In this document: positions 58,153 to 63,085 of the stretch, one piece after another | Position numbering within the stretch: position 1 is the first letter of the stretch | How the letters are laid out: the number at the start of each line of letters is the position of its first letter | Assembly: GCA_011524905.1 (NCBI GenBank) | Contig: WTJI01000022.1 | Location: 1 to 64,000, forward strand | From: Flavobacteriales bacterium | GTDB taxonomy: Bacteria > Bacteroidota > Bacteroidia > Flavobacteriales > Flavobacteriaceae | DNA: 64,000 nucleotides | Reading direction: 5' to 3' | Notes under the pieces: model-generated | The model's database searches: none | What the model was told of the DNA's origin: nothing | The model's input: the letters and a program-made list of their open reading frames with translations, nothing else | Position numbers and translations under genes: made by a program

Positions 58153-58692
58153 GTGAAAAAAATTTTATTACTATGTGCATTGTTTCTAAGTGCTTGGACC
58201 AGTGCGCAGCAGATAAAGTGGATGACTTTGGATGAAGCCTTAGCAGCGCAAAAAGATAATCCCAAAAAAATATTTATGGATGTTTACACCAAATGGTGTG
58301 GTCCTTGTAAGTTATTGGATCGAAAAACATTTGCCAATCCCTATTTAGCTGCCTATGTTAGTGAACATTATTATGCAGTTAAGTTTGATGCAGAAGGACA
58401 GGAAACGATTAACTTTTTTGGCAATACATTTACGAATCCCAACTATGACCCCAATCGAAAGGGGCGCAATGCAACCCACCAATTCACTCAGTTTCTTGGA
58501 GTTTCTGGCTATCCTACCATGGTATTTTTAAGTGAAACAGGTGATCCTATCATGCCTGTTGTAGGGTACCATACTGCCCAACAACTGGAAATGTATCTAA
58601 AGATGATCAAGCAGGGTGACTATCAGGTTTTTTCCAAACCGGAGGACTTTGAGAATTACCGAAAAAACTTTACACCGCGCTTCAAGGGGTAA
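58153..58692 (+). CDS. Secreted thioredoxin-family protein
   Basis: Signal peptide, FMDVYTKWCGPCKLLDRKTF, GVSGYPTMVFL; GTG start. Confidence 0.88.
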   Translation: MKKILLLCALFLSAWTSAQQIKWMTLDEALAAQKDNPKKIFMDVYTKWCGPCKLLDRKTFANPYLAAYVSEHYYAVKFDAEGQETINFFGNTFTNPNYDPNRKGRNATHQFTQFLGVSGYPTMVFLSETGDPIMPVVGYHTAQQLEMYLKMIKQGDYQVFSKPEDFENYRKNFTPRFKG

Positions 58693-60681
58693 ATGACACG
58701 GCTTTTTCAGCGGTAGTATAAAATGCAATGCCTGCTTTATTGCAGCTGGCTTTCCACGATTCGAAATCCCAAGGGCCATTACTCCCATCGGCCACAACAA
58801 CTTTAGGTTGCCATTGACTGAAAATCCGTTCCAAATGAACTTTAGGATTGTTTTTTAGTAGAATTATATCAGCCCTTGGAAAAGCAGCGTCCTGCAAGAC
58901 TGTATCAAAATCAAGAACCAATAGTCGTATTGATTTAAAATCCAACCATCGCCATAAACTATCTATTCGTATTTCTTTGGCAGGATATTCCCTTTGGAAA
59001 TCTTGTAACAATCTTTGTGTTCTTGTTTCTGGTGCATCACTAAAAAAATGGATGGACTGGTTTTCATACCAGATAAGTGCTGTATGCTTTGGTTGATGAA
59101 GAACCCATAATTGCCCCTTGTCATAAGTTGATATGCGTGAAAAGGCAAAGACTATGACAGCAACAAGTGATATGAAAAATGGAGGGTTCCATTGATAAAC
59201 TTTTTTAGACTGCCAGCCTAGGATGGCGCCCACCAAAAGAGCGTATAACAGCACTACTTCCTCTTGCGATAAATATATATTGTCCCATAGTAAACTTTCA
59301 TAACTACTGATTTTTTTGACAATAGAATGGATTACAGAGACCAGAAGATCATATAGCTTGAGAGCGTTTGTCATTGGTAAATCCAGAAGCAGCAATGGTG
59401 TTCCTAGGATAGCTACAATCAAAGAGAGGGTAAATAAGTGGAGAACCAATAGATTACTGACTAAAAAAAGGAAAGGGAATTGGTTGAAGTAATATATTGT
59501 TAGAGGGGCTACAGCTAGCTGAGCAGCTACACACACAACTGTGAATTCCCATAGCCAGCGTTTCCATTTCTTTCTGGGATGGTAAATTTTTTTGGCAATA
59601 GCTAAGCCAAATATAATTCCAAGAACAGCAATATAACTTAGCTGGAATCCAATTTGTGTTAAAAAAGGTGGGTAAATAATTAGCAGGATCCAAGCAGACA
59701 AAAATATGCGTTGTAGAGGGGGTTGGGGTCGTTTTGTCCACTCTCCAATGTGTAGGAGTGAAAAGAGCGTTACAGCCCGAACTACAGCTGGTTGGAGCCC
59801 TGTTAACAGCGCGAAGCCCCACAGCATGAAGATTAAAATTACTTTCCTGATCCAGCTTCCCCCTTTTGTATAATGTAAAGGCAACAAAAGCTACCCCATA
59901 AAAAAAGAGATAATACCAATATGCAAGCCAGAAATGGCCAATAAATGTACCAGGCCTGCACGGGCATAGGCTTCTCTTAATTCACTTTCAATATATTGAC
60001 GCTCAACAAAAATCAAAGCTAGTATATGGGCGGTAGCTGCAGGACTCAATCCACTGTTTTGTATTTTTTCAATGGCTTGTGACTTGGCTACCAATAATTG
60101 ATCAATTTTAGTAAGCGGTGTATTCAATAGCACTAAATGGTTGTTTTTTTTAATCGGTATTGTGCCAAAATCCCCTTGTTTTTTAAGTAGGCAGCATAGT
60201 CAAAAGCACCCGGGTTTTGGGGTGGGTCAATGGGTTTCGGTTTAACTTTTGTAACCAGCTGCTGTCCTACTTTTAAAGCCACAGCTCTATCTTCTTTACT
60301 CACTGTTACAAGAACTTTTACGCTACTGGCAGTGTCATTGACAGAAACTACTTTTCCATAATAACGATAGTTAAATGTATTGGCCCTAAGGACTTCGTAG
60401 ATTTTGATACGGGACAGACTTTTTTCATTTTTTGAGAATAGATCTGTTACAGATTCTTGATGTTGAGCAGCCGTAAAAATACCTAGAATGAAAAGTTCAT
60501 AGAAGACAATAGTTCTAATCAACCAAGTTTTTCTAAAAACCAGTAAAGGGATTGGAAGCAAAAATAAAATGATGGTCCCAACTAGACCATTTGAGAGCGT
60601 TTCTGAGTAATAATTTGACAGTAGTTGACCAGCAATTAAAGCGATCAAAGCATAAAAAAGGAAGCTATCAAATCGGGGCAT
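58682..60681 (-). pseudogene. comEC: ComEC/Rec2-family competence protein, interrupted by a frameshift and an in-frame stop
   Basis: Three consecutive ORFs (60681-60133, 60133-59891, 59887-58682) together give an N-terminal soluble domain, HLLAISGLHIGIISFF motif, TM competence region and C-terminal domain; frame changes at A8 (60144-60151), then TAG at 59891-59893 with the same frame resuming. Confidence 0.85.
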
Positions 60682-60706: not shown

Positions 60707-61807
60707 TTATTTCAAATGCGCTACAATTTGTTCTGCTGTTTTTTGACTGGCTCCGCCTGCATCTAATAATTGGTACAGATTTTTATATTGATCCAAAATA
60801 TTTTGCCGACCACCCTGAGAAAGGATATGCTGCAAGGCTTTTTGTAGCGATGCTGGATGGCAGTCCTGTTGGATTAATTCTTGGACAACTTTTTTTTCTA
60901 AAATTAGATTGACAAGAGAAATGTATTCGAGTTTGACCCATTGTTTGGCTAGCCAATAACTTAATTTACTGGTTTTATAACAAACCAATTGCGGGACATT
61001 AAAAAGAGCCGTTTCCAGCGTTGCAGTCCCACTGGTAACAATTGCTGCTTTGGCCGCTTGGAGTAGGGGATAGGTTTGCCCCATAACTAATTGACAAGAA
61101 GCGTTTTCAATCCACGGTTTATAGAAATCGGAACCTAGATTTTTTGTACCCGCTACAACAAACTGATATTGAGTAAAGTGTGGAATTAGACTCAAAAATA
61201 GGGGTAGCATTTTCTGCACTTCTTGTTGGCGACTGCCAGGCAGCAAAGCAATGATGGGTTTTTCATCAGATGGATATTGTAATTGGATGGGTTCTGTCTT
61301 TTTTTGTAAACTGTCTAACAGCGGATGCCCTACATAGTGTACTTCATATTGGTGATGCTCAGAAAAGTATTTTTTTTCAAAAGGCAGGATAGTATATAAG
61401 GCTGTTAGATTTTGTTTCATTTGCTGCACCCGATTGGCCTTCCAGGCCCAAACTTGTGGACTGATGTAGTAATGATTTTGAAACCCCTGTTTTTTAGCCC
61501 ATTTGGCAATACGGAGATTAAACCCTGGATAGTCAATGTAGACAATAGCATCGGGCTGGAAAGCTAAAATATCTTTTTTGCAAAAGGCAATATTTTCAAG
61601 TATGGTTGGTAGATGGGTTAAAACTTCCCAGAAACCCATAAAAGCCAAGTCACGATAGTGTTTTACCAATTGCCCTCCAGCCTTTTCCATCAGATCCCCT
61701 CCCCAGCAACGAATTTTGGCATTGCAATCTTTTTGGAGGAGGGATTCAATTAGTCTAGCTCCGTGCAAGTCTCCAGAAGCTTCACCAGCGATGAGGTAGT
61801 ACTTCAT
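60707..61807 (-). CDS. lpxB: Lipid-A-disaccharide synthase
   Basis: KYYLIAGEASGDLHGARLIESL, DYPGFNLRIAKWAKKQG, ALLPGSRQQEVQKMLPLFL. Confidence 0.95.
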   Translation of the reverse strand: MKYYLIAGEASGDLHGARLIESLLQKDCNAKIRCWGGDLMEKAGGQLVKHYRDLAFMGFWEVLTHLPTILENIAFCKKDILAFQPDAIVYIDYPGFNLRIAKWAKKQGFQNHYYISPQVWAWKANRVQQMKQNLTALYTILPFEKKYFSEHHQYEVHYVGHPLLDSLQKKTEPIQLQYPSDEKPIIALLPGSRQQEVQKMLPLFLSLIPHFTQYQFVVAGTKNLGSDFYKPWIENASCQLVMGQTYPLLQAAKAAIVTSGTATLETALFNVPQLVCYKTSKLSYWLAKQWVKLEYISLVNLILEKKVVQELIQQDCHPASLQKALQHILSQGGRQNILDQYKNLYQLLDAGGASQKTAEQIVAHLK

Positions 61808-61897: not shown

Positions 61898-62182
61898 TCA
61901 ACCCATAATTTTTAAGAAAGCAATACCAACAACTAGTAATAAAGAGAGTATCAATATACCCGTAGCAAAATCATTTTTTCTTTTTCGTATGGCAACAAAA
62001 AAAAGTAATAAATTGATTAAAGCACCAAGACTAATCAATCCACCCAATTTATTTTGGTAATATAAGAACTGAATGCTATCAAATGTATCACCCCTGGAAA
62101 CTATTGAAGTCAGTAATAACACACTTGATGCTGTGGCAAGTAAAGCTGCAAAAAATCCTTTTCCAATATCGTTTCTATTCAA
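61898..62182 (-). CDS. Small multi-TM hypothetical protein
   Basis: 94 aa, three hydrophobic segments; overlaps surE by 8 nt. Confidence 0.7.
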   Translation of the reverse strand: MNRNDIGKGFFAALLATASSVLLLTSIVSRGDTFDSIQFLYYQNKLGGLISLGALINLLLFFVAIRKRKNDFATGILILSLLLVVGIAFLKIMG

Positions 62183-62948
62183 ACTGCCAAGTATTTAGTT
62201 TTTGTATGGCATGGTGCGCTGTAAGATCATATTGAACGGGGACAACAGAAATATAGTTGTTTTCCAACGCCCATTCGTCAGTATCTTCACCACCATCTTC
62301 ATTAATGAATTTGCCAGTAAGCCAATAATATTCACGCCCCATAGGATTGGTGCGTTTATCAAATTCTTCGACCCAATACGCTTTGGCTTGTCTACATACT
62401 TTGATCCCCTGTATGGGCGTGTCAACTCCTTTAGGGAAATTCACGTTAAGGACCACATTTTCTGGTATTTTGTTTTTGAGTGCTTTTTGAGTTATCTCCT
62501 TGACATAGGGTTTAATGATATCAAAATTAGCACCCCAACGGAAATCGAGAAGGGAAAAACCAATGGCAGGTATACCTTCGATACCAGCTTCTAGGGCAGC
62601 ACTCATTGTTCCCGAATAAATGACATTTATAGAAGAATTAGAGCCATGATTGATTCCAGAGACACATAAGTCAGGTTTGCGGTCTAGTAATTCGTTGACA
62701 GCTAATTTGACGCAATCGGCTGGTGTGCCAGAGCAACTGTATTCAGTTTGCGGCCCATCATCCAAGCTGATTTTACTACAATGTAAGGTCGAATTGATAG
62801 TAATGGCATGCCCCATTCCAGATTGAGGGCTGTCGGGTGCAACAACAACAACATCACCCAACTCGTTCATTACTTCAATAAGTGCTCGGATACCAGGGGC
62901 TGTAATCCCATCGTCGTTTGTAACTAAAATTAAAGGTTTTTTTCCCAT
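62175..62948 (-). CDS. surE: 5'/3'-nucleotidase SurE
   Basis: KPLILVTNDDGITAPGIRALIEVM, VVAPDSPQSGMGHAITI, CSGTPADCVKLAV, SGINHGSNSSINVIYSGTMSAALEG-like; start moved to MGKKPL because a -7 box (TAAATTTG) lies in the longer ORF. Confidence 0.94.
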   Translation of the reverse strand: MGKKPLILVTNDDGITAPGIRALIEVMNELGDVVVVAPDSPQSGMGHAITINSTLHCSKISLDDGPQTEYSCSGTPADCVKLAVNELLDRKPDLCVSGINHGSNSSINVIYSGTMSAALEAGIEGIPAIGFSLLDFRWGANFDIIKPYVKEITQKALKNKIPENVVLNVNFPKGVDTPIQGIKVCRQAKAYWVEEFDKRTNPMGREYYWLTGKFINEDGGEDTDEWALENNYISVVPVQYDLTAHHAIQKLNTWQFE

Positions 62949-63085
62949 GTTGTATTCTTGTTGCAATCCCTCAAATTTAGGCATTCTACTTGGGAACTAG
63001 CCTTTCTATTTTAACAAAAACTTTTAAGACGAAGCCCACTATTTACCTGCATTTTACTTATTTTAGAGGTTCAAAAAATTTTGCT

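Follow-up and report, generated by a model that had tools for sequence, protein, structure and literature searches.

Losses of competence genes in other bacteria

Competence genes of the Pasteurellaceae show unique and recent defects, namely stop codons, deletions and frameshifts, of which any affected gene carries only a few (Redfield et al. 2006; PMC1626085). Frequent loss of competence, with non-competent lineages being selected against in the long term, has been offered as the explanation (PMC1626085). The decay of comEC described here in the Flavobacteriaceae is similar in that apparently recent, unique lesions occur in separate lineages and loss is repeated (PMC1626085). However, the genes affected in the Pasteurellaceae are comA, comB, comM, comD/comE and pilB, whereas here comEC is commonly affected; all eight of the Pasteurellaceae genomes are recorded as having rec2, the homologue of comEC (PMC1626085). 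The comM pseudogenes of Acinetobacter baumannii likewise reflect recurrent inactivation of a transformation gene in one group, but within that species most of them arose through the insertion of mobile elements, in contrast to the point lesions without insertion found here (PMC11472951). ComEC has also been lost from the reduced Bacteroidetes genomes of endosymbionts such as Blattabacterium; there the whole protein is lost, whereas here what is very probably a fresh pseudogene persists, in genomes of about 2 Mb (PMC6299819). By itself, a single broken comEC is ordinary gene decay of a kind already known in other bacteria, although the present case is a clean one, and the decay reported below is a further instance, in another family, of known competence-gene loss.

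Two lesions in the comEC gene of the window

The window (the whole stretch of 64,000 nucleotides analysed, positions 1 to 64,000 of contig WTJI01000022.1) belongs to a 1.98-Mb draft assembly (G000; 63 contigs) with an estimated completeness of 90%. Its comEC gene, including both lesions, spans 58682..60681 on the minus strand and is the only Competence-domain locus of the genome. The first minus-strand frame, starting from 60681, ends in YRLKKTTI, with its stop immediately past CGATTAAAAAAAACAACC; this N-terminal open reading frame (ORF; 60133..60681, minus; 182 amino acids) contains the DUF4131 domain (Pfam, E = 9e-22) and closes shortly past a change of reading frame at an A8 tract (60144..60151, minus). 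The other frame goes on with NNHLVLLNTPL to SGLHIGIISFFMG and then meets an in-frame TAG inside the Competence domain (59891..59893, minus; read 59893-59891), which closes a middle piece (59891..60142, minus) that holds the start of that domain (Pfam, 5e-12). Past the TAG, the frame stays free of stops until the natural TGA at 58682, and this third part (58682..59890, minus) carries the remaining Competence domain (1e-33) and the C-terminal region. Across the broken gene, the Competence domain (PF03772) scored 172.5 bits.

Frameshift-aware alignment with the intact 670-amino-acid ComEC of G023 recovered exactly two lesions and no more, bearing out the first-pass annotation of this DNA, which had described a frame change at the A8 tract, an in-frame amber codon and an otherwise open frame down to the C terminus. 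Two more distant references also recovered both lesions, with the frame change positioned no more than about 20 bases from the tract. The combination of DUF4131 and Competence is the dominant ComEC profile in Bacteroidetes (PMC6299819). The C-terminal piece gave no Pfam match to Lactamase_B, which is no bar to membership of the ComEC/Rec2 family because Bacteroidetes members usually do not have this domain, which is present in some family members (PMC6299819). Since the pieces are collinear with the family-wide gene and represent the only comEC in the genome, the three ORFs are parts of one gene and not a chance overlap of ORFs. What this comEC does not offer is a single uninterrupted reading frame for the channel, and a Competence-domain search of the 90%-complete assembly returned this one match and no second copy.

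With a one-base frame change in the A8 run and a nonsense codon early in the Competence domain, comEC should yield no full-length inner-membrane DNA channel for natural transformation, and DNA uptake would be expected to be lost. The first-pass annotation had also raised the possibility that a full-length product is still made through programmed −1 frameshifting on A AAA AAA combined with amber readthrough. In principle, A runs in this register can be slippery. Neither a slippery site with its stimulator nor the amber codon is conserved in any relative, however, and the fold downstream of the tract (−10.8 kcal/mol compared with −8.2 ± 3.0 kcal/mol for shuffled sequences) is only weakly better than expected, whereas the stretch past the TAG folds worse than shuffled sequences. 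Moreover, TAG serves as an ordinary stop codon here, closing 12 of the 47 long ORFs of the window, and a product that depends on two inefficient steps one after the other would be made in very small amounts. We regard such recoding as hardly credible; the window comEC is very probably a young pseudogene that reflects a real and recent loss of function.

Genomic surroundings and intact relatives

The window comEC sits in surE–lpxB–comEC, a conserved locus of the family. Its upstream neighbour lpxB (60707..61807, minus), which adjoins comEC across the family, and surE (62175..62984, minus) are both intact and served as rate controls. A thioredoxin-like gene (58153..58692, plus), also intact, is convergent with comEC; the 3′ ends of the two genes overlap by 11 bases (58682-58692), and the same overlap occurs in the congener G002 (L003:2711-2721). 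We measured the background of gene breakage by tiling the window and by comparing the 48 kb over which the window contig and G002 have a common gene order. Every gene pair in these 48 kb apart from comEC is whole in both genomes, with length differences that correspond to start-site choices; comEC is broken in the window genome as well as in G002.

Across 18 other genera of the family, comEC forms a single ORF of 663–714 codons with surE and lpxB adjoining. The gene was found in 227 of the 251 family genomes sampled and is unbroken, at about 640–730 codons, in the larger Flavobacteriaceae (about 195); no internal stop was seen among roughly 197 larger family genomes (2.5 Mb and above), these large-genome counts being approximate because they were made by eye from listings. 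Four short comEC frames among the larger genomes (G018, G019, G098 and G141) lie at, or apparently at, contig ends. The window gene is thus one that is intact in relatives, carries disabling lesions and is accompanied by no second intact copy in a genome estimated to be 90% complete.

Given that all three pieces remain open, ComEC might instead be made as separate polypeptides that assemble. No relative was found to encode ComEC in separate pieces by design, an arrangement that the first-pass annotation had named as contrary to its reading, and the breaks, which are not the same from lineage to lineage, lie within domains; the middle piece would comprise about 80 amino acids and be cut within the Competence domain. 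A functional split gene therefore has a negligible probability, and a young pseudogene remains the preferred reading.

The survey of comM, comF and dprA that the first-pass annotation had proposed found all three whole in the window genome, with open frames of 521, 239 and 384 codons, respectively. Natural transformation of Riemerella anatipestifer, another member of the Flavobacteriaceae, cannot proceed without comEC, dprA, comF and recA (PMC8459023). Because comEC is essential in that species, its breakage very likely leaves the window organism unable to undergo transformation.

Pathway decay in a congener and age of the probable loss

In G002, the best-assembled congener (97% complete), comEC occupies the corresponding genomic place and is likewise broken. 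Its lesions—one TAA and two frame changes, in a gene that also contains a scaffold gap of 10 N near its end—include none in common with the window gene; at the position aligned with the window TAG, G002 has a tryptophan codon, as expected from the earlier proposal that the amber codon derives from Trp, and at the place aligned with the window tract there is no A8. With no lesion in common, comEC has been broken independently in the two genomes. In G002, dprA (L050:957-2087) is interrupted by an internal TAG and has lost a short stretch at its C terminus, comF (L105:792-1466) has two TAA codons and comM gave no match above the cut-off in this 97%-complete genome. Decay in G002 extends to the competence pathway as a whole. 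The other two congeners, G001 and G003, are too incomplete to inform on comEC: G001 (66% complete) retains only the last 107 codons, open and at a contig edge, and the absence of comEC from G003 was rejected as evidence of deletion because lpxB is missing too, the whole locus being absent. In G001, the last codons of dprA (L053:1331-2560) are out of frame relative to those of relatives, giving an altered C terminus.

Errors of assembly or consensus would offer a different account of the window lesions, in which comEC is intact in the organism and both apparent lesions, the A8 length and the TAG, stem from mistakes or from variants of a minority strain. The sequence is a draft in 63 contigs, in which base-calling or strain mixing could have gone wrong at one or both sites, and homopolymer length is a classic error. 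Intact dprA, comM and comF in the same genome would fit such an account, as would the codons around the lesions, which still look constrained and are compatible both with error and with recent loss. However, two independent mistakes would be needed in one gene, although intact genes of the window contain about 30 other A8–A9 or T8–T9 runs and no other gene pair in the shared 48 kb is broken. In addition, comEC of the congener is also broken, by different lesions and along with the rest of the pathway, and recG, a gene of similar length, has no internal stop in 38 near-full-length matches (48-genome set). We consider error unlikely and retain the reading of the window comEC as a young pseudogene.

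The age of the loss was approached through divergence. In intact pairs, the ratio of ComEC to LpxB divergence is about 2.8 (s.d. 0.5, n = 120 pairs); the comEC/lpxB distance ratio between G000 and G002 is 2.2. On a fixed tree, the tip branches were 0.51 (G000) and 0.81 (G002) for comEC, and 0.41 (G000) and 0.31 (G002) for lpxB. Judged against lpxB, no excess comEC divergence and no lengthening of the comEC tips was found in G000 or G002, which suggests that normal constraint acted on comEC during most of the interval since the split between these genomes. With two lesions in 2 kb and no excess divergence, the loss would be recent. Synonymous sites are saturated in the dN/dS comparison between G000 and G002, and a recent loss would leave no trace of relaxed constraint; in the C-terminal part of comEC compared between G001 and G002, values were 19.5 of 174.7 sites for nonsynonymous and 16.5 of 50.3 for synonymous changes. 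The earlier view of a recently inactivated gene as the simplest reading gains support from the single ORF in relatives, the different lesions of G002, the intact neighbours and the divergence data.

Split comEC in other small-genome genera

Beyond what the first-pass annotation had considered, the loss is recurrent: in addition to the pathway decay in G002, five unrelated genera with small genomes carry comparable lesions. With comEC broken or absent in several small-genome lineages of the family, these bacteria seem to be losing DNA uptake time and again. The comEC gene has a frame change at an A8 run in G061 (L076), at an A10 run in G156 (L096) and near a C6 run in G065 (L075), and is interrupted by an in-frame TAG in G111 (L085) and by an in-frame TAA in G147 (L079). 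We compared size classes using the 30 comEC-bearing family genomes no larger than 2.4 Mb (27 when the window's genus is left out). Split comEC was found in 5 of these 27 genomes, compared with 0 of about 193 larger ones (Fisher's exact test, P of about 2e-5), on the understanding that single lesions in the five draft genomes could include errors and that the size classes include incomplete assemblies. Against recG, the length-matched control with an internal stop in 0 of 38 near-full-length matches, the contrast is weaker (P of about 0.01, again with the window's genus left out).

Frame changes at homopolymers in several genomes bear on another earlier suggestion, that slippage at the A8 tract toggles ComEC within the population. 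The frame change of the window falls in such a tract, as do those at A8 in G061 and A10 in G156. Yet the tract is not conserved, being absent at the aligned position of G002 and located elsewhere in G061; many runs in intact genes are at least as long, and a change in the tract length would leave the downstream amber codon in place. Phase variation is, on these grounds, highly improbable, and even when taken jointly with recoding it accounts for the locus with very low probability.

As in the window genome, dprA is open in all five genomes (G061, G065, G111, G147 and G156), whereas 14 of the 18 small genomes without comEC are also without dprA, the other 4 being only 75–82% complete. Because dprA is open where comEC is split and mostly gone where comEC is absent, the comparison suggests that comEC tends to break first, often as the first part of the pathway to do so, and the rest follows later. 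A likely cause would be that DNA uptake is under relaxed or negative selection in Flavobacteriaceae with small genomes. We tentatively raise the broader possibility, which we hold to be rather doubtful, that these lineages repeatedly lose DNA uptake with comEC as the preferred first target, and that the lesions seen are mostly young because lineages without uptake are short-lived. If true, repeated comEC-first loss would be a pattern of lineage selection across one family, not within one species. It has long been asked why natural transformation is lost in many bacteria, and whether losing it does no harm, is selected or leads to a dead end. A family with comEC whole in nearly all of its larger genomes but freshly split or missing in many small ones offers a clear comparative test set, which would allow the timing of losses, the first-broken pathway gene and later recombination rates to be addressed.

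Two larger and nearly complete family genomes, G162 and G048 (3.1 and 3.6 Mb, respectively), have no comEC; dprA is absent too from G162 and gave a weak match only in G048. Short ComEC frames that end past the Competence domain with no visible lesion were seen in G186 (L093, 489 codons) and G083 (L100, 465 codons); they were left uncounted as broken genes for want of a lesion, and are possibly natural forms without the C-terminal region.
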